Notes: generated from the sequence alone by a model not told the origin. A stretch of 64,000 nt of DNA from Ruminococcus flavefaciens (GCA_015067005.1 SVNH01000014.1:27534-91533), one strand, 5' to 3'; numbered from the stretch's first letter, positions 4,505 through 15,306 are shown. Made by a program: numbers and translations.

Positions 4505-5650
4505 ATGAAAAATTTATCCGTAAAAAAAGCAATCAAGGAAAATATGTTTACTAAGAGTGAGAACATTAACAAATTCTCCGAACCCCGTGATACTGTTCAC
4601 AAGGGATTCACTCTCGTGACAGGCACAAACAACGACATCAAGCATGATTCCGTAAAAAACATGCTCGTCGATAGCTGCAGCAAAACATCTACTATTTTTA
4701 TCGACACAAGAGAAATGCTTGACTCCAACACGATAGACCTTATATCTTCTCACCCGCTTCTTGACGGAAAGGTGAAAACGATAGACGTTTACAAGGACGG
4801 AATTCCCGTCAATTTGTTTTACGCAGATCCGGAGAAAACCGATGAAGAAAAGGTTATCGATTTATTCGATGTCTGCTCTTCAATCTACAGAAACCCGGAT
4901 CCTGACCACATGGAAATGCTTCACGAAGGTATATCTGTTTACATAGAAAACCTGGATGATTTCACAGACTGTTCCGTATATGAAAAAGCAAGAATCGAAG
5001 AAATGCAGCTACTTGAATTTCTTAGTCAGGCTGTATTATATACGACCAACGATCCGTTTCTTCACGAAGTTCATTATTCAATTGAGCATGATCTTGGCGA
5101 TTGCGGAATGATGAACAATTCGTGGGCGAACATCATCCAGTATCCGGGTCCAGCTTATTATATCAACATAAATTCCGGTTGGAGAGATAGTGCGCTTCCG
5201 ATTGCGGATATGCTCCTTGCATCACTCAGAAACGCCCGCAAGCGCAATCATGACATCCCAATTGATCTCTACGTAAACGATATTGCTGACCTTAACTTCT
5301 CAAGCACCGGCTCAATCAGAAAAATAATTAACGAAAGTGAGTGCTTGAACATAAACGTTATCGGCATATCACGCGATTATTATTCGCCTGCTACGCCGGT
5401 AGGTCAGATCATGGCTTCGGCGGAAAAGCAGTTCTTTCTCTTCCCGACAATTAAGTCAAAGGAATATGTTGATTCAGCTCTTCAGATTAGCAGCGGCGAC
5501 GAATGGCCGTTCATAGATATTCTGTACGGCGATGCTATCCTGAAGGAAATAGTCCATGATTCGCACACCGGCAAGAATGTAGCAACTGTTTGCAGAGGTA
5601 GTCTCAAAAATTATTTTAGCCTCAGAAACTACTTCGGCTTTAATGATTAA
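4505..5650 (+). CDS. HerA/VirD4-like P-loop fold protein with degenerate Walker motifs
   Basis: GFTLVTGTNNDIKHDSVKNMLVDSC in the Walker A position and PIDLYVNDIADLNFSSTGSIRKIINESECLNINVIGISRDY in the Walker B/sensor position; adjacent to a larger ATPase gene. Confidence 0.5.
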   Translation: MKNLSVKKAIKENMFTKSENINKFSEPRDTVHKGFTLVTGTNNDIKHDSVKNMLVDSCSKTSTIFIDTREMLDSNTIDLISSHPLLDGKVKTIDVYKDGIPVNLFYADPEKTDEEKVIDLFDVCSSIYRNPDPDHMEMLHEGISVYIENLDDFTDCSVYEKARIEEMQLLEFLSQAVLYTTNDPFLHEVHYSIEHDLGDCGMMNNSWANIIQYPGPAYYININSGWRDSALPIADMLLASLRNARKRNHDIPIDLYVNDIADLNFSSTGSIRKIINESECLNINVIGISRDYYSPATPVGQIMASAEKQFFLFPTIKSKEYVDSALQISSGDEWPFIDILYGDAILKEIVHDSHTGKNVATVCRGSLKNYFSLRNYFGFND

Positions 5651-5678
5651 TTTTTAAAACAATAAAGGATATGAATTG

Positions 5679-5698
5679 GCGGAGGCTTTTGCCTCCGC
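5679..5698 (+). terminator. Hairpin GCGGAGGC-tttt-GCCTCCGC between the two ATPase genes
   Basis: Perfect 8-bp stem with tetraloop; no long T-tract, so may be only a partial terminator. Confidence 0.5.
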
Positions 5699-5728
5699 TA
5701 TATTAAGTTATATGAAGGAGCGATATAT

Positions 5729-8700
5729 ATGAGATTCATAAGAAGTAAAAACGGCGATTACAGCAATCTGCCGAGAATTCCCGAAGAATCAATCCGTCAG
5801 CCGCTGACAGGCAACAGCGTCCCACAGAATGCCGTTAATTCAGTGCCTGCCACCTCTGAACAGGTTTATGCTCAAATGGGACAACAGATAGGATATCTGG
5901 ATATGTGGGCGAATAATGGCTATACTATGGATTCGTACCATTTCGCCTATGAGGTCGAGACTGAAGAAGGAGCTTTTGTACTGTTTTACGGTGAAAATGG
6001 CGTAAAATATATAGAACGGACAGTAACAAAACGAGAGCAGAACAACCTTAAAGGCGGACTGTCTCACACCAGCAAAATCAAGGACAAGCCCATTGAAATA
6101 TGCGATGCTGTTTTCTTCAAGTATGGAGAAAAATTTATGCGCGAAGATAAGCCCGACAAGCACTATTTCTATGTTTATACGTCGGACGATAATACTAACG
6201 ATCTTTCTATGGTAACTAAGGTTATCGAAAAAGGCGACTTGAATAGTCCGCAATGCAGCCTGATATTTAAACCGGAAATAGTCAGATCTGGACAGGAAAA
6301 ACTATGCAGCGCCTTCTTCCGCGCCGAGATATACCGCGTTTCCAAACGCAGTACAGAGATAATGGTACCAACTCATCCTGGTTGGCATTTTGATGAAAAA
6401 TACGGCTTTGTATTCCTGGACAGAATGAGATACAAGGAACTTCCCGAGACCGAACTGCCTCCTTTCCTTTGTAAAAGAATAGTGGGAACAACTAATAACT
6501 CAGTCAGCAGCGTATATAATAATTTGAAGCCAATGATAGGTCAGTGTTTGCAAAAGAAATTATTATGGAGCGCGAGACTGATTAGTCCACTTCTTATGCC
6601 GCTCTGGAAGCATGGCGTAGTAGTGAGAACTATAATAGCTGCAATCATTGATACTACCGACCAGATGTCAACTTCTGCCGCAATACTTAAAACTGGAGAT
6701 TTCGCTAACTTTGATTCGTTGTCGCTATACTCATCAACTGTGGATATCGACAAAGAAATAGTCGGTGCCCGCGACGGCGTTGCAACATTTATCTGTCCAC
6801 TGACAGCGGCAGAGTCAAAATATAACGCTGCTAAGGTCAATTATATCCGAGATGCAGCGATAGGCGCTAACGGAGCAGATAAGACTGCGAGGGCGCTTAT
6901 CTCGTTGATAGGTCGCTTCATTCCAGCAGACCTGCCGCCAGAATTTGTTCTTCCCATCGACTGTAAGAGAATGGCTACCGATGCAGATGATAACAAGCTT
7001 CGGAACTTCGTGTTGGAGTTCGATGCGGCGTACATATCCTATATTGAGAACCATTTCGATGTTATTGAGAGCTGGATAAGCTCCACAGCAGTGCGTTACA
7101 AGGCAGAGCCTGCTCCAGGAATCGAAAAGAATAAAGACGGCCTTTACATAGCATTGAACGCATTACAGAGTATAATGAAAGGCTGCTTCAATATTGAGCT
7201 TTTTACGGACGACGAGTTCAAGCGTGTTACCGACCTGTTCAAAGAATCCGCGACAGAAATCATCGCTCCCGACTACGTCGTCAGAGACCAGTTCATTACT
7301 GTAACAATTGATATGATAATGGAAAGACTATTCTCGTTTATGGATATAGTTTCCGCCCACAAGAACTATTCCGATGACGGACGCACATTGATCCTTGACC
7401 GAAAAAAGGGATTCCTCAACTTCAAAATTAAGTCTCTTGACAAGATAGCTGAGCGCATCCCGACCGTTAAAGACGGAGCTGAGCTTGCGGGAATACTTAA
7501 GGCTTGCAGTACTATAAAATGTACCGATAACGGCGCTCGTCAGATAACTACTCCCGAGGGACGCTCCGGATTTTACAGCGTTTATCTTTCGGAGCTTGGA
7601 GACGATATACTGCCGATAATCAGGTATATTGACAATATCGAGTTCTTTATGCTGCCGGAAGAAGTCCCTGAGAATTTCATACCGCTGGTATGGTTCAGAG
7701 GACGCTGTGCCGGTATCGTTCTTGACGGTAAAGGATTGCCGAATCCTCATATCAATATCTGCGGATTGTCGGGCATGGGCAAAAATCGAGGTGCTTACCG
7801 CAACGGTGAATGCTTCCTCCGCTTACGTTCCAAGTTCATTTTCATCAATATTAAGGGACCCATAACCGAGGATTCTCTCAAAGATATGGGTTGTCCTACT
7901 GACAAATATGACCTGTTCAATCTCAAGACTGAAGGCTTGCCGTTCGATATATTCAACGTATCGGACTTTAAAGGCAAGAACGCGAAAGTCAGCTACATAT
8001 TGAATATTATATGTGCGGCAGTTAATGGTCTCACCGATAATCAGCTCAACGAGCTTTCCGATTATGTCAACAGCATGGTTGACGATGATACGCAGAGCTT
8101 TTCCCTGCTTGAACTCTTTGAAAAATTTCCCAAGGGCAGAACAATAGCTCTTCAGAAGAAGCTCACTCCGCTGTTCAACATGATGAGAGCTTATACTCCA
8201 AAAGGCGAAAAATACAAGTATCCCTCTTTTCGTGAGTTTATTGACGACCGCAGCAGGATAACTGTTCTGTCTATTGTTCAGAGTAACGTCACGGCGTTGC
8301 GCTGCACTGTCTATGCGCTGTTGCAGTCTTTATTTGAACATCAGATTCTTGACAGCCATACCCGTGTGGTATTGTACGCTGACGAGATGCAAAAATATAC
8401 CTCAGATAGCCCATTTCAGCAGTGGTTCGCTGAAGGCAGGCAGTTTAATATTATGGCTGCTGGAATAACGCAGGAATATCGCAGCAGGGACAACGAGACA
8501 CGAAACTTCACAAGCAACGCTGCAATGGAGCTTTTCTATCCTCCGACTACCGTTTCAGCAGATAAAGTGTTCAAAGCACTGAATACGGAATTCTCAATAG
8601 AGGAGCTTTGTTCCGGAAATCTGGGAGATATTTTCTGTAAGGGATTTTTCTGGAGCAGTGTTGAGAAGCGCCATAAACCTGCTATTCTTTGCGGCAAAAA

Positions 8701-8764
8701 TGACGATGAGGATTTCTCAAAGCTGAAGATACGTCCGAAAGGCTATTACGGTAATGTTCTTTAA
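5729..8764 (+). CDS. Large HerA/FtsK-like ATPase (1011 aa), probable mobilization or replication ATPase of the element
   Basis: Late P-loop-like NICGLSGMGKN; Walker B VVLYADEMQKY; ...FQQWFAEGRQFNIMAAGITQEYRSRDN resembles VirD4/TraG/HerA C-terminal regions. N-terminal half has a GWHFDEKYGFVFL segment reminiscent of DUF927. Confidence 0.55.
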   Translation: MRFIRSKNGDYSNLPRIPEESIRQPLTGNSVPQNAVNSVPATSEQVYAQMGQQIGYLDMWANNGYTMDSYHFAYEVETEEGAFVLFYGENGVKYIERTVTKREQNNLKGGLSHTSKIKDKPIEICDAVFFKYGEKFMREDKPDKHYFYVYTSDDNTNDLSMVTKVIEKGDLNSPQCSLIFKPEIVRSGQEKLCSAFFRAEIYRVSKRSTEIMVPTHPGWHFDEKYGFVFLDRMRYKELPETELPPFLCKRIVGTTNNSVSSVYNNLKPMIGQCLQKKLLWSARLISPLLMPLWKHGVVVRTIIAAIIDTTDQMSTSAAILKTGDFANFDSLSLYSSTVDIDKEIVGARDGVATFICPLTAAESKYNAAKVNYIRDAAIGANGADKTARALISLIGRFIPADLPPEFVLPIDCKRMATDADDNKLRNFVLEFDAAYISYIENHFDVIESWISSTAVRYKAEPAPGIEKNKDGLYIALNALQSIMKGCFNIELFTDDEFKRVTDLFKESATEIIAPDYVVRDQFITVTIDMIMERLFSFMDIVSAHKNYSDDGRTLILDRKKGFLNFKIKSLDKIAERIPTVKDGAELAGILKACSTIKCTDNGARQITTPEGRSGFYSVYLSELGDDILPIIRYIDNIEFFMLPEEVPENFIPLVWFRGRCAGIVLDGKGLPNPHINICGLSGMGKNRGAYRNGECFLRLRSKFIFINIKGPITEDSLKDMGCPTDKYDLFNLKTEGLPFDIFNVSDFKGKNAKVSYILNIICAAVNGLTDNQLNELSDYVNSMVDDDTQSFSLLELFEKFPKGRTIALQKKLTPLFNMMRAYTPKGEKYKYPSFREFIDDRSRITVLSIVQSNVTALRCTVYALLQSLFEHQILDSHTRVVLYADEMQKYTSDSPFQQWFAEGRQFNIMAAGITQEYRSRDNETRNFTSNAAMELFYPPTTVSADKVFKALNTEFSIEELCSGNLGDIFCKGFFWSSVEKRHKPAILCGKNDDEDFSKLKIRPKGYYGNVL

Positions 8765-8917: not shown

Positions 8918-9457
8918 TTAGTCCTCGTCATCATCGTCGTGAGGAACAAATTTCTGTTTACAAGTCCACTCGGTCCCGTTTTCTTTTCTGATAACAAGCT
9001 GAGTTGGCTTTCCGGTAATATCAGCCATGCGTTGCGCCAGACCGTAGTTTGTGGTGTTATCGGCGTAAAGCATCGCACCAGTCTTAACATCAGTTGGACT
9101 CATGGCAGTATGTCCATGATATTTGCAGCCGTCTCTGCTCTTTTCGTGAATACCGATACCTGCGAGATGAGTTTCCGTAAGAGGCTCGAATATTTTCTTA
9201 GTCAACTCCATTGCTATTTCAGGAGTAGGCGCAGTCGATTCGGTATATGAAGTCATATAGTGAAATACCGGCGTTTTATCCTGATTACCGCTGAACTCAG
9301 CCACAGTCTTAAACTGCCTGTAAGCGTTGTGGGAATTGTTAGGGTCTATACCGAATCCTTCCTTCAAGACCTGATCCTTACCGATTGGGTAGTTTACGAC
9401 ATTTCTCAGGCACTTATCATCGCCGTTAGTATGTAATATCAGCTTAAAAGTTTCCAT
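8918..9457 (-). CDS. Compact MOBP-like relaxase / mobilization protein
   Basis: LRNVVNYPIGKDQVLKEGFGIDP...FHYMTSYTESTAPTPEIAMELTKKIFEPL...LAGIGIHEKSRDGCKYHGHTAMSPTDVKTGAMLY: relaxase N-terminus with H...HxH triad. Confidence 0.65.
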   Translation of the reverse strand: METFKLILHTNGDDKCLRNVVNYPIGKDQVLKEGFGIDPNNSHNAYRQFKTVAEFSGNQDKTPVFHYMTSYTESTAPTPEIAMELTKKIFEPLTETHLAGIGIHEKSRDGCKYHGHTAMSPTDVKTGAMLYADNTTNYGLAQRMADITGKPTQLVIRKENGTEWTCKQKFVPHDDDDED

Positions 9458-9723
9458 AACTCCATCACCTTCTTCTGTATCTTTATCGCTTCTTCGGGCA
9501 TATCGTCTTTGAGTTCTTCGTACTTGGCGTTTGCTTTGTTCTGTAACTCAAACATAAGCTCAGGCGTGAGAGGTATCGGATAGTGCTCGATCCTGTATGC
9601 TGCAATATCAGAACGAGGGATTCCTTTCTCTTTAGCGATCTGATCCAACTCATCGAAGGTAGACTGTCTTACCTTCATCGGTAACGGTACTTTCTTGTCT
9701 TTTTGATCTTTCATGTTGACCAC
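9439..9723 (-). CDS. MobC-like / ribbon-helix-helix accessory mobilization protein
   Basis: KKVPLPMKVRQSTFDELDQIAKEKGIPRSDIAAYRIEHYP is RHH-like; overlaps the relaxase start by 19 nt. Confidence 0.6.
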   Translation of the reverse strand: MVNMKDQKDKKVPLPMKVRQSTFDELDQIAKEKGIPRSDIAAYRIEHYPIPLTPELMFELQNKANAKYEELKDDMPEEAIKIQKKVMELWKLLS

Positions 9724-10320: not shown

Positions 10321-11673
10321 TTATATGAACATAGCCAGATAATGCGGAAGCGTCAGCTTATTCTCGCTCTGTCCTATATTACCGCTGATCAGCTTATACG
10401 CAACAGAAGGCTCAAATTCTTCAATGAATCTGTTCAAGGATTTTGTTGCGGTATTGCCAGCTTTGACCTCAATTGGAGCGACATCGCCGTCTTTTTCAAT
10501 GACAAATTCAAGCTCGGAGTTGTCATCGGGCTTGTAGTAATGAAGCGTGTAGCCGTTTTTTATAAGAGTTTCAGCTGCTAAATTTTCATAAATACCGCCC
10601 TTTGCAGGACCTCTGAGCTTGCCATTCAGAAGAGCTTGCTTAGTTGCAAAGCCGTACATAGCCATTAGCAGTCCGGTGTCATTGATATACAGCTTGAACT
10701 CATTGTCCTTTTCATACGCTTTCAGTGGAAGGATAGGCATACTGGTATTGCAGCAGATATACGCCATATTCGCATCATGCAGCCATTGTACGCTGTCCCC
10801 GAATTTACGTGCAGTTGCCTTGCTTTCGACCTCTGAGTATTTGAATTTCTTATTCTCTCTTGCAAGCTGCCGCGGAATACTGTCGTAGCATTTTCTGACT
10901 TTGACCTTTTCTGCCCCTTTAGCGTGCTGAGATATATCATCAGCGTATGAAGTGAGTATCTTATCCTGTATTTCCTGCACTCTGCCAAAGTCCTTATTCT
11001 CCATAAAATCTGCAACGACTTCCGGCATTCCTCCGACCACAAGATACTCTCTGAGCAGTGCATCGTATTTTTCGTTCACCTCAGAAGGTATCTTTTCCCT
11101 TGATTCATAGAACCTGCGAAGATATTCGATAGTGTCGCTGTCGTAGCCATACGCCCAAAGGAACTCCTCAAAATCAAGAGAATACATCATAAGAGGCTTT
11201 TCGTAGCCGACAGGGATAGAATCCACCTCCGTGACCTCCTTATCGGCGTCCTGACCGTAAGCAAGTCCAAGCAGCGAACCAGACGCGATCACGTCAAAGC
11301 GTTCGTCCTGCGCTAAAAATTTGAGAGCAGTTCTTGCGTTGGCACACTTCTGTATCTCATCAAGAAACAAAAGCGTTTTTCCGGGTATCAGCTTAACTCC
11401 CGGAATATTTGCCGTGATCCTTTTATATATCTCCTCAGAGGAAAGCTCTCCCTCAAAAATGATTCTCAGATCATTTTGCATATAAAAGTTTATCTCAATG
11501 AAGCTCTCATATTCATTAGCGCCGAACTGCCGGACAAGATATGTCTTTCCGACCTGTCTTGCGCCTTTTATCAAGAGACATTCATAATTTTTACTGTTTT
11601 TCCACTCAAGAAGCTTGCTGTACATTTTTCTTTTGAGCATAACCATCCCTCGCTTTCGTATTAATTTTAACAT
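10321..11673 (-). CDS. AAA_14/DUF4143 family ATP-binding protein
   Basis: LLIKGARQVGKTYLVRQFG (Walker A), LLFLDEIQKC (Walker B), C-terminal LHYYKPDDNSELEFVIEKDGDVAPIEVKAG (DUF4143). True start may be 11640 (MLKRKMYSK). Confidence 0.9.
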   Translation of the reverse strand: MLKLIRKRGMVMLKRKMYSKLLEWKNSKNYECLLIKGARQVGKTYLVRQFGANEYESFIEINFYMQNDLRIIFEGELSSEEIYKRITANIPGVKLIPGKTLLFLDEIQKCANARTALKFLAQDERFDVIASGSLLGLAYGQDADKEVTEVDSIPVGYEKPLMMYSLDFEEFLWAYGYDSDTIEYLRRFYESREKIPSEVNEKYDALLREYLVVGGMPEVVADFMENKDFGRVQEIQDKILTSYADDISQHAKGAEKVKVRKCYDSIPRQLARENKKFKYSEVESKATARKFGDSVQWLHDANMAYICCNTSMPILPLKAYEKDNEFKLYINDTGLLMAMYGFATKQALLNGKLRGPAKGGIYENLAAETLIKNGYTLHYYKPDDNSELEFVIEKDGDVAPIEVKAGNTATKSLNRFIEEFEPSVAYKLISGNIGQSENKLTLPHYLAMFI

Positions 11674-11828
11674 AGTATAGGCAAAAAGTCAAGAGTTATA
11701 CATATAATAGTGTGTCACAAAAATAAAATATTGCATATTTCAGGCATATGTACACCGACGAAAAATGCATATTTTAGAGGTTAAAACAATTTCCGATTAT
11801 TTCGATTTTGCAAATATATATAATTATT

Positions 11829-11850
11829 ATGAATAATAATTATTATTCAT
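11829..11850. repeat. 22-bp perfect palindrome ATGAATAATAATTATTATTCAT
   Basis: Read directly; lies in the divergent intergenic region. Confidence 0.7.
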
Positions 11851-11969
11851 TTTCAATTGAATTTTTTTCTCCATTTTCAGCCGTTTCCGATTATTCTTCC
11901 TTTCGGTATATATATTATTTCAGTGACAAGAGCTTTTGTCGCCATTATATTACGAAAGGAGAATGAGCC

Positions 11970-12254
11970 ATGTTTCAGAATGACCGATACCTCACCTGCG
12001 GAGTGGACAGTTCCATACCATTGGAATTGCAGCTGTTCCTATGGTCGTGCGTAGACGGACTGCCCGAGCCGCGGGATCACTTGCAGATATTCGACTTAAA
12101 GCAGGTCGGGTGCCTTCAAAGCATCACACACCGCAGCGAGATGCCCGAATACCGTATGGAGTATCTGCTGCCGTCGGATAGTCCAATTACTGAGAAAATT
12201 TACGTAATCGACGACGGCACACATTCAACAATGCTGCTCAGCAGCGAATATTAG
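11970..12254 (+). CDS. DUF960-family small protein
   Basis: MFQNDRYLTCGVDSSIPLELQLFLWSCVDGL...DHLQIFDLKQVGCLQSITHRSEMPEY resembles DUF960; RBS AAAGGAGAATG. Confidence 0.65.
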   Translation: MFQNDRYLTCGVDSSIPLELQLFLWSCVDGLPEPRDHLQIFDLKQVGCLQSITHRSEMPEYRMEYLLPSDSPITEKIYVIDDGTHSTMLLSSEY

Positions 12255-12266
12255 AACGAAACTTAC

Positions 12267-12292
12267 GCCGCTCCTCTCGGGAGCGGTCTTTT
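12267..12292 (+). terminator. Hairpin/terminator between DUF960 and amidoligase genes
   Basis: CCGCTCC-tctc-g-GGAGCGG then TCTTTTT. Confidence 0.7.
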
Positions 12293-12314
12293 TATGTCTG
12301 AACGGAGGTCAAAT

Positions 12315-13421
12315 ATGGAAGAAAAGAATAACGGAAATGCGCTGTATTGCAGTCATTGCGGCGCGTTGATAGGTGAAAACGAGGACTATGAAGAAGTGCA
12401 GGGCGAGGTCGTATGTATGGATTGCGTGGAGCGGCACACTGTCAGATGCGACTCCTGCTCCGAGCTGATATTTGAAAGCGACAGCATAAGCGATGAGTAC
12501 ACCACGCTGTGCGAGCACTGCGCAGAAAATTACTATCGGAGATGCCGTGAATGCAATTGTCTAGTCCACGATGATGCAGTTTACTGGGAAAACGACAATC
12601 CGTATTGCAGCGAATGCTACCACGATATCCAGCACTCGATACACGAATACAATTACAAGCCGGAGCCGGTATTCTTTGGCGATTCTGACCGATATTTCGG
12701 AGTTGAGTTAGAAATAGACGGAGCAGGCAAAGACGATGATAACGCCAATGAACTGCTTTCTGTTGCCAACAAAAATGATACCGAGCACATCTATGTCAAG
12801 TCGGACGGTTCGTTAGATGACGGCATTGAGCTGGTCTCGTTCCCAATGTCATTAAATTACCATAAGCAATTCTGCTGGGAGGAAATAATGCGTAAAGCTA
12901 TCGCTCTCGGATACCGAAGTCATCAGACTTCGACTTGTGGACTTCATTGCCATGTGAACCGCTCCTGCTTCGGCGATACCCGCGAGGAGCAGGATTTGGT
13001 CATTTCTAGGATACTGTTCTTTGTGGAAAAACACTGGGCTGAACTGCTGAAATTCAGCCGCAGAAGCGAGTACAGCATCAATCGCTGGGCTGCACGATAC
13101 GGCTACGAACGCACCGGTAGGGACATACTTGAAAAGGCGAAAAAAGGCAATCTTGGAAGATATGCGGCGGTCAATCTGCAAAATTATGCGACAATAGAAT
13201 TTCGCCTGTTTCGCGGCACTTTGAAGTACAACACGCTCATCGCCGCACTGGAACTGGTAGACAAAATATGCGATGTTGCTCTTGATTATTCGGACGAAGA
13301 AATCGAGAAACAATCGTGGTCGGAATTCGTCGGAACGATAACGGAACCGGAGCTCATCACATACTTAAAAGAACGAAAGCTTTACGTGAACGAAGACGTT
13401 GAATCGGAGGTTGAAATGTAA
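12315..13421 (+). CDS. Amidoligase (Amidoligase_2, COOH-NH2 ligase fold) with N-terminal zinc-ribbon modules
   Basis: CxxC arrays (CSHCG...CMDC, CDSC, CEHC, CREC, CSEC), then FGVELEIDG, VKSDGSLDDGIELVSFPMS, TCGLHCHVNRS, RYAAVNLQNYATIEFRLFRGTL. Confidence 0.85.
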   Translation: MEEKNNGNALYCSHCGALIGENEDYEEVQGEVVCMDCVERHTVRCDSCSELIFESDSISDEYTTLCEHCAENYYRRCRECNCLVHDDAVYWENDNPYCSECYHDIQHSIHEYNYKPEPVFFGDSDRYFGVELEIDGAGKDDDNANELLSVANKNDTEHIYVKSDGSLDDGIELVSFPMSLNYHKQFCWEEIMRKAIALGYRSHQTSTCGLHCHVNRSCFGDTREEQDLVISRILFFVEKHWAELLKFSRRSEYSINRWAARYGYERTGRDILEKAKKGNLGRYAAVNLQNYATIEFRLFRGTLKYNTLIAALELVDKICDVALDYSDEEIEKQSWSEFVGTITEPELITYLKERKLYVNEDVESEVEM

Positions 13422-13600
13422 TGAAAACAACAGATTTAATCAAAGCGATACCGGCAGGAAGTCCCGCCGGCGAGATACTGAAAATAGCCGCGCTGATCAC
13501 CGCGACAGTCCTCATGGACAAGATCGGCGACGTGGTCAAGGAAGTCATAGACGAGGCTCAAACGCCGCTTATCGACGTTACGTACAAGGAGGAGAAATGA
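13421..13600 (+). CDS. 59-aa small protein between amidoligase and GATase
   Basis: Translated by hand: MKTTDLIKAIPAGSPAGEILKIAALITATVLMDKIGDVVKEVIDEAQTPLIDVTYKEEK*. Start overlaps upstream stop (TAATG); stop is 1 nt before the GATase ATG (TGAAATG). Confidence 0.75.
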   Translation: MKTTDLIKAIPAGSPAGEILKIAALITATVLMDKIGDVVKEVIDEAQTPLIDVTYKEEK

Positions 13601-13601
13601 A

Positions 13602-14588
13602 ATGTGCAGTTTGTTCGGTTATTTGGATTATCAAGGTATTATGCCGCATAGGCTCGCCCGTAAGCTCTGCCAATCGTTGGCTAATTCAGCCGAGGAAAGA
13701 GGGACTGACGCCTCTGGGATAAGCTATGTTAAGGACGGTGAAATCGTCATTTATAAGCGTCCTAAAGCCGCTCATAAGCTGCGATTCAATCCTCCAGAGG
13801 GTACGAGAGCAGTCATGGGACATACTCGGCTCGCAACTAAGGGAAATGAGAAGTTCAACTTTAACAACCACCCGTTTTACGGCAAAAATCCCGGTATTTC
13901 GTGGAGTCTGGCTCATAACGGCTGCCTGTACAATGACTCCGCATTGCGTAAGGAGAAGAAACTTCCCGACACCAATATCGAGACCGATTCGTACATAGCC
14001 GTCCAACTTATAGAATCGCAGCAAAAGCTGAATTTTGATTCGCTCAGATATATGGCGGAGGCGGTTCACGGCAGCTTTACTTTCAGTCTACTTGACGAGA
14101 ACAATTCGCTGTATTTCGTCAAAGGCTCGAACCCACTCTGCCTGCTGCATTTCGCGGATATTGGGCTCTATGTTTATGCGAGCACAGAGAGCATTATGAA
14201 GAACGCTCTGAAACGAGTGGGACTTCACAAGTTCGCTTTTGAACGCATTGAGGCTGACGAAGGCGATATCATAAAAATTGACCGGAACGGTAATATCACA
14301 CGCTCCCAGTTCCAGCCTGCTCCGAACTATACAAACTTTTCTAAGTTCAAGTGGTGGTACGGCGACTATGACGACTACTATTCTGCCTATGAGCAGACGC
14401 TTATCGATATGGCGCATTGCTTCGGGATCGACGAAAATGACGTGATCCTCCTCATGGACTACGGCTACACGATTGACGAGATTGAAGAGCTGATGATGGA
14501 CTCCGATGCGTTGAAGCAAGCTGTCAGCGAGATAAAGTTTACGGACGGCGAGTACCTTTACGAAAGCTGCTGCGGAGGGATATGGTGA
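13602..14588 (+). CDS. Stand-alone class II glutamine amidotransferase (Ntn hydrolase)
   Basis: MCSLFGY (N-terminal Cys), ANSAEERGTDASGISYVKDG, MGHTRLATKG, SLAHNGCLYN, NIETDSYIAVQLIE. Confidence 0.9.
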   Translation: MCSLFGYLDYQGIMPHRLARKLCQSLANSAEERGTDASGISYVKDGEIVIYKRPKAAHKLRFNPPEGTRAVMGHTRLATKGNEKFNFNNHPFYGKNPGISWSLAHNGCLYNDSALRKEKKLPDTNIETDSYIAVQLIESQQKLNFDSLRYMAEAVHGSFTFSLLDENNSLYFVKGSNPLCLLHFADIGLYVYASTESIMKNALKRVGLHKFAFERIEADEGDIIKIDRNGNITRSQFQPAPNYTNFSKFKWWYGDYDDYYSAYEQTLIDMAHCFGIDENDVILLMDYGYTIDEIEELMMDSDALKQAVSEIKFTDGEYLYESCCGGIW

Positions 14589-15160
14589 TGGGCAGAATTG
14601 GCTATATACGTGTATCGACTGAGCATCAGGAGACTGCCCGTCAGGAAGCACTGATGAAGCAGTATCAGGTCGAGCGCGTATTTGCTGAGAAGATGTCCGG
14701 AAAGAACGCCGACCGTCCCGAGCTGAAAGCTATGCTCGAATACGTTCGTGAAGGCGATACTCTGTACATCGAGAGTATCAGCAGACTTGGTCGTTCAACT
14801 CGGGATCTTCTCAATATTATAGATGTACTCCAGCGCAAGAACGTAACTCTTGTCAGCAGCAAAGAGAATATCGACACTAACACTCCACAGGGGCGATTCG
14901 TTCTGTCGATATTCGCGGCACTCTCCGAGCTTGAACGTGAACAGACATTACAGCGCCAACGCGAGGGTATTGCTATTGCGAAGTCGCAGGGTAAGTACAA
15001 AGGTCGGCAGCCTATCGAAATAGACTGGACTAAGTTCGGTCAGCTGTATGAGCAATGGCAGTCCGGTGCTATTACGGCAATATGGTTTCAAAAGGAAATG
15101 GGCCTTCGCGCCAACACCTTCTACCGCCGTCTCAGGGAGTACGAAGAAAAGTATATTTGA
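14588..15160 (+). CDS. Serine recombinase, resolvase/invertase type
   Basis: MGRIGYIRVSTEHQETARQEALM...IESISRLGRSTRDLLNIID...TPQGRFVLSIFAALSELEREQTLQRQREGI plus C-terminal HTH-like segment. Confidence 0.95.
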   Translation: MGRIGYIRVSTEHQETARQEALMKQYQVERVFAEKMSGKNADRPELKAMLEYVREGDTLYIESISRLGRSTRDLLNIIDVLQRKNVTLVSSKENIDTNTPQGRFVLSIFAALSELEREQTLQRQREGIAIAKSQGKYKGRQPIEIDWTKFGQLYEQWQSGAITAIWFQKEMGLRANTFYRRLREYEEKYI

Positions 15161-15306
15161 ATAAGAAGGAGCTGGTACAAATAATGTATCAGCTCCGCTT
15201 TTCTTGCAATAGGGTAGCGATTTTATTTGACATATTTCAAAAGCCGAAAAACAACTTGTGTGAAACAGATTTTTCGTATGTCAATAGACTATGGGCTATT
15301 GAAACA

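Follow-up and report, generated by a model that had tools for sequence, protein, structure and literature searches.

An amidoligase gene and a class II glutaminase (GATase) gene belong to a functional unit of the order DUF960-amidoligase-(peptide)-glutaminase, carried by a mobile element of Ruminococcus flavefaciens. Our reading, held with moderate confidence, is that the two enzymes together form one glutamine-dependent amidating ligase, each as a subunit. The window referred to below is the whole stretch of DNA that was analysed (64,000 nucleotides).

Layout of the gene cluster

Five genes were confirmed in the window, in the 5' to 3' order DUF960, amidoligase, 59-aa peptide, class II glutaminase and serine resolvase, all closely spaced or overlapping (Table 1). 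The preliminary description had placed DUF960 upstream of the amidoligase and had read the junctions as translationally coupled; the position and the junction sequences were reproduced: TAATG joins amidoligase and peptide, TGAAATG joins peptide and GATase, and the GATase stop overlaps the resolvase start at 14582-14588. A mechanical reading of the amidoligase frame gave 12294-13421; the start at 12315 is better, being preceded by a GGAGG ribosome-binding site and conserved in relatives. The ATPase gene at 10321-11673 (minus strand), between the MobC-like gene and DUF960, matched the PADLOC candidate defence family PDC-S01 (E 6e-149), and most relatives were without such a gene at the corresponding position. 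Two further element proteins, of 1011 aa (5729-8764) and 381 aa (4505-5650), gave no Pfam or NCBIfam match; "conjugation ATPase-like" is only a working name for them.

Table 1. Positions of the module, its parts and its neighbours within the window.
Feature	Position	Strand	Support
Relaxase, divergent	8918-9457	-	PF03432, E 3.8e-8
MobC-like gene, divergent	9439-9723	-	mobilisation context
AT-rich region, kept between paralogues	11788..11969	+	blastn among own-genome copies begins at 11788
Weak sigma-70-like match	11923-11951	+	promoter scan no better than shuffles
DUF960 gene, 94 aa	11970..12254	+	PF06124, E 1.1e-26
Covarying hairpin with T-rich tail	12267..12287	+	covariation, terminator scan
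Amidoligase gene, 368 aa	12315..13421	+	PF12224, E 1e-6
Three LIM-like zinc ribbons of amidoligase	residues 12-101 = 12348-12617	+	invariant Cys, model
Predicted GS-like COOH-NH2 ligase core of amidoligase	about 12681-13373	+	
Hydrophobic peptide, 59 aa, variable slot	13421..13600	+	no Pfam match
Predicted stand-alone class II glutaminase, 328 aa	13602..14588	+	PF13522, E 4e-12
Predicted Ntn glutaminase domain of GATase	residues 1-240 = 13602-14321	+	AF2 model
Predicted C-terminal helical bundle of GATase	residues 262-316 = 14385-14549	+	AF2 model
Serine resolvase/invertase	14582..15160	+	PF00239, E 1e-42
Terminator-like hairpin closing the cluster	15168..15196	+	terminator scan

The preliminary description had mentioned neither the hairpin, T-rich at its tail, that lies between DUF960 and the ligase nor the terminator-like hairpin after the resolvase. 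For the first of these, stems of at least 8 pairs were present in 91% of 58 related loci versus 12% of dinucleotide shuffles, with two main stem types across these loci. In an alignment of 33 hairpin sequences 96% of the cells paired, and 34 cells had changed on both sides compared to a shuffled mean of 11.6; compensatory changes were seen at three fully exchanged pairs, and the covariation signal was lost when the partner position was slid. The changes mostly split into the two stem types and therefore represent few evolutionary events. The T-rich tail suggests that the hairpin is probably a leaky terminator or attenuator.

The two enzymes

The amidoligase matched PF12224 at 29.3 bits (curated cut-off, 22), and residues E131, E133, D164, E172, H211, N287 and E295 were invariant among 60 sequences. 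Its AlphaFold model (pLDDT 90.2) matched glutamine synthetases (GlnA), YbdK, GmaS, PafA and Dop, and the N-terminus of the model matched LIM proteins; the TM-scores of the ligase matches were modest (about 0.35-0.4), so that they place the ligase in a fold superfamily without specifying its activity. The N-terminal zinc ribbons proposed earlier are real, in that 12 ribbon cysteines were invariant among 16 sequences and the model shows a LIM fold; the Pfam matches to the LIM-like ribbons were below cut-off. As modelled, the amidoligase is a GS-fold ligase with LIM ribbons that agrees with Amidoligase_2 in profile and in fold, and ATP-dependent amide-bond formation is what these would predict.

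The window GATase retains M1-C2, R76, H105-N106-G107 and D129, and its motifs coincide, by alignment, with those of the GlmS encoded in the same window. Among 70 GATase sequences M1, C2, H74, R76, H105, N106 and G107 were invariant, D129 being unscored as invariant in that set. In the AlphaFold model (pLDDT 89.7) a disordered linker connects the glutaminase domain to a helical bundle at the C-terminus, and the model's best PDB matches were PurF and GlmS/GFAT; PurF and GlmS are ammonia-channelling enzymes. The preliminary description had held that the protein carries neither a synthase nor an isomerase domain, and residues 241-328 indeed comprise the linker and the small helical bundle; since there is no acceptor domain, the acceptor site has to come from a partner. 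Sequence and model together point to a predicted GlmS/PurF-type class II (Ntn) glutaminase with an intact Cys, Arg, Asn-Gly and Asp signature, and to a stand-alone glutaminase subunit rather than a complete amidotransferase. It shares the Ntn class II fold and signature residues with the glutaminase domains of GlmS, PurF and AsnB; unlike these, it stands alone and carries a C-terminal helical bundle of its own.

The simplest reading is that the GATase supplies ammonia to the GS-like ligase. The GATase would hydrolyse glutamine at its N-terminal cysteine, releasing ammonia; the ligase would activate a carboxylate with ATP and join the ammonia to it as an amide; and the LIM ribbons would dock a macromolecular substrate or partner. 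Separate ligase and glutaminase subunits, as proposed here, are also the arrangement of MurT-GatD, which amidates peptidoglycan. MurT is Mur-ligase-like and GatD is a class I GATase, with folds unrelated to those of the amidoligase and class II GATase.

Conservation of the pair and turnover of its neighbours

The host genome (2.79 Mb, 28 contigs) has four ligase-GATase copies, every one paired. GATase matches (E <= 1e-20) were found in 17 of 36 sampled Ruminococcus genomes and in 1 of 24 sampled from the rest of the order, with up to eight in a single sampled genome; the source records of the relatives are mostly Ruminococcus, notably R. flavefaciens, and largely of rumen or gut origin. Locus anatomy was counted over 80 GATase-anchored loci, a locus being "with room" for a given neighbour when it had enough flanking sequence. 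The preliminary description had made its reading depend on conservation of the pairing, and the pairing holds in other genomes: in all Ruminococcus-type loci with room (73/73) the ligase lay directly 5' of the GATase, and order-wide the GATase adjoined the ligase in every ligase locus with room. DUF960 was kept as first member in 60/62 loci with room (Oscillospirales elements), and relaxase/MobC genes lay divergent upstream in 33/43. Chance pairing was considered and rejected, because of the four paralogues and the gene order kept across the genus, and because the pairing was also conserved when a search started from only one of the genes.

The pairing also extends to phages. The ligase alone served as query against viral contigs, and a GATase was counted if it lay on the ligase's strand at a distance of no more than 2.5 kb; by this measure a class II GATase was the neighbour in 40 of 55 contigs. 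The profile built from the Ruminococcus order alone found 15 of the 55, missing most of the distant phage GATases; the count of 40 uses a profile (A5) that itself includes many of these, which were recognised by motif reading, sub-threshold Pfam matches and profile-profile comparison. These have the same start and motifs, with Pfam matches from sub-threshold to weak, and the profile-profile comparison supports them (97.3%, E 2e-11). Four of the other 15 contigs end within 400 bases past the ligase, three form a fragmentary group whose relatives do show the GATase, and eight belong to one C. difficile-type lineage. The pair was present in Marvin-type mycobacteriophages and a Mycobacteroides abscessus plasmid, a group in which some GATases have additional zinc motifs. 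No ligase-GATase gene fusion was found in the viral loci searched; in one viral contig (L147) a RadC-like gene (5497-5937) lies between the two genes. The C. difficile plasmid/phage-type lineage (L153-L158, L160, L169, L219) has amidoligase, DUF1653 and nucleotidyltransferase genes, without a GATase.

The functional unit was delimited by distance correlations, mean distances and neighbour counts, all of which differ for the resolvase. Distance rank correlations were 0.63 for DUF960-ligase, 0.59 for DUF960-GATase and 0.54 for ligase-GATase, compared to -0.10 to 0.21 for the window-type resolvase and 0.08 to 0.09 for the relaxase, each against the module proteins. The window-type resolvase had a mean protein distance of 0.12 versus about 0.31 for the enzymes, and was about 90% identical between loci where the enzymes share 60-70%. 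A serine recombinase lay within 1.6 kb downstream in 42 of 72 loci with room, 26 of them with the window's type (RES) and 16 with the RES2 type; the latter correlated with the GATase at 0.59, from 9-12 loci, too few to weigh. The resolvase was considered as a fourth functional member, a place that it loses through its lack of co-evolution and its frequent absence or replacement; it is a recently shared neighbour outside the unit. The DUF960 protein gave a weak match to PDB 2r41. In a mosaic cassette (L055, 7122-9676) the ligase and DUF960 are 66% and 77% identical to those of the window and the GATase only 42%; subunits are therefore exchangeable between lineages.

The preliminary description had looked to the 59-aa peptide as a possible substrate, a role which the occupancy of its slot does not bear out. 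Slot peptides are about 47-65 aa long; they belong to several families that do not resemble one another, all with a hydrophobic stretch in the middle, and a peptide in the slot is almost confined to the window's genus. The slot stood empty in 15/73 loci, as it did in the majority of phage pairs and of the order's remaining genera. At one locus (L049) DUF960 is downstream rather than upstream, and a DUF4314 gene (about 7826-8052) fills the slot. That the peptide is the ligase's substrate, as a RiPP-like or tag-like protein, would agree with the overlapping genes, the one fixed site between two enzymes, and purifying selection (dN/dS 0.17-0.36 between the window peptide and three relatives, 0.09-0.36 over all pairs measured). 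We regard it as very improbable: no acceptor residue common to all peptide families was found, a DUF4314 gene is able to take the place of the peptide, and a RiPP precursor should be always present with a conserved modifiable core. Since the slot is empty in some loci and its occupants are dissimilar, the peptide is unlikely to be an obligatory substrate; it is accessory, as DUF960 would also be in the proposed mechanism, and may serve, for example, in localisation.

Chemistry, target and meaning

Amidoligase-GATase neighbours are already known from phages (PMC3890496, PMC5498523, PMC10580990), and the Ruminococcus version of the pairing has its own extra parts. The podovirus "peptidoglycan modification cassette" of RIO-1, LUZ24, tf, phiEco32 and PSA-HP1 (PMC5498523, PMC3890496) likewise has an Amidoligase_2 and a class II GATase a few genes apart on a mobile genome; it also has a second GS-like ligase, an ATP-grasp protein and reportedly a gamma-glutamyl cyclotransferase (GGCT), whereas the shared Ruminococcus core is without these and adds DUF960, the variable peptide and the hairpin. 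Among 20 extracted loci no further family was shared at the module position, neither a second GS-like ligase nor ATP-grasp nor GGCT. The pairs of OM43 phages and Marvin-type mycobacteriophages (PMC10580990) resemble the module in having two genes, zinc motifs and homologous folds; they differ in lacking DUF960 and peptide and in belonging to phages, not a mobilisable element, and the Marvin GATase has extra C-terminal CxxC zinc motifs. No prior description of a module with DUF960, peptide slot and covarying hairpin on mobilisable elements was found in the open-licence literature.

A sister arrangement bears on the chemistry. Most of the distant Amidoligase_2 genes in the phylum sample were without zinc ribbons, and in about 15 of about 20 loci read among the zinc-less Bacillota elements (L249-L272) the neighbour was GGCT-like with a YGSN signature; Pfam GGACT was confirmed in the three such neighbours tested. 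Reported amidoligase-GGCT pairs in Tn6164 and in prophages (PMC3485107, PMC11318856) belong with those of the Bacillota conjugative elements. Like the module, these place an Amidoligase_2 beside an enzyme of glutamine or gamma-glutamyl chemistry on mobile elements; unlike it, the ligases of the examined Bacillota loci have no zinc ribbons and the partner is GGCT rather than a glutaminase. This split between zinc-ribbon/GATase and zinc-less/GGCT loci was also without prior description in the open-licence literature.

The main rival to the amidating ligase is a gamma-glutamylation cycle, in which the ligase would form an amide bond between glutamate or another acid and an amine on a metabolite or target. 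The GATase-like protein would then be a gamma-glutamyl amidohydrolase that takes the adduct off or edits it, the part that GGCT would play in the sister systems. Within the same family, the amidoligases without zinc ribbons pair with GGCT, which provides no ammonia, and thus gamma-glutamyl chemistry may be a shared theme; YbdK and GmaS, a gamma-glutamylmethylamide synthetase, are among the GS-family matches of the ligase, podovirus cassettes are reported with both partner types, and the podovirus cassette paper puts GATase and GGCT on the degradation side. Some class II GATase-like proteins (DUG3) break down gamma-glutamyl compounds and do not supply ammonia, which also argues against an amidating ligase, as do the lack of a ligase-GATase fusion in the viral loci searched, the moderate, not tight, ligase-GATase co-evolution coefficient and the one lineage having an amidoligase without any GATase. 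We nonetheless think the cycle rather unlikely: the GATase keeps a glutaminase signature, its best structural matches are not gamma-glutamyl hydrolases, and GGCT is not among the shared neighbour families where the GATase is present.

The target of an amidating ligase is the least certain part of the proposal. The element probably modifies a host or envelope target, which would favour its own establishment or exclude competing elements. One doubtful but possible target is peptidoglycan: a carboxylate of its stem peptides or precursors would be modified, keeping out rival phages or conjugative elements. Being a statement about the target, this reading overlaps with both the amidation and the gamma-glutamylation chemistry, and the likelihoods that we attach to them are not exclusive. 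Cell-wall modification with superinfection exclusion has been hypothesised for phage amidoligase/GATase cassettes, the module adjoins mobilisation genes of mobile elements, and the hydrophobic central helix of the peptides could bring the enzymes near the membrane. Set against this, the octanol scale rates the helices as no more than marginally membrane-like, the phage homologues come from varied hosts, making a single common wall target doubtful, and the open-licence literature yielded no experimental support for exclusion. The host, moreover, encodes MurT and several Asn-synthase homologues, so that ordinary wall amidation by the module would be redundant.

A restriction- or defence-type role, as a candidate anti-phage or counter-defence module, appears improbable. 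It would suit the location on a mobile element, and in SCC elements DUF960 also adjoins a ccr recombinase and a gene of the uracil-DNA glycosylase inhibitor family; no protein of the module had a PADLOC match. Slightly less improbable, and put forward as speculation, is that the module represents a new class of post-translational or envelope modifier of mobile elements: a LIM-guided, glutamine-driven amidating enzyme for which interchangeable small hydrophobic peptides, from the gene slot between its two subunits, would set the target or location, with the attenuator uncoupling DUF960.

Phages and conjugative elements widely carry Amidoligase_2 enzymes, for which no tested function was found in the open-licence literature. 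The near-obligate pairing of zinc-ribbon ligases with a glutaminase, versus that of zinc-less ligases with GGCT, leads to a chemical prediction, namely amidation by the former and gamma-glutamylation by the latter. Because rumen Ruminococcus genomes have several copies, the module is probably important to the elements that carry it. The mobile elements of rumen Ruminococcus thus carry a strictly paired module that probably adds an amide from glutamine to a target.
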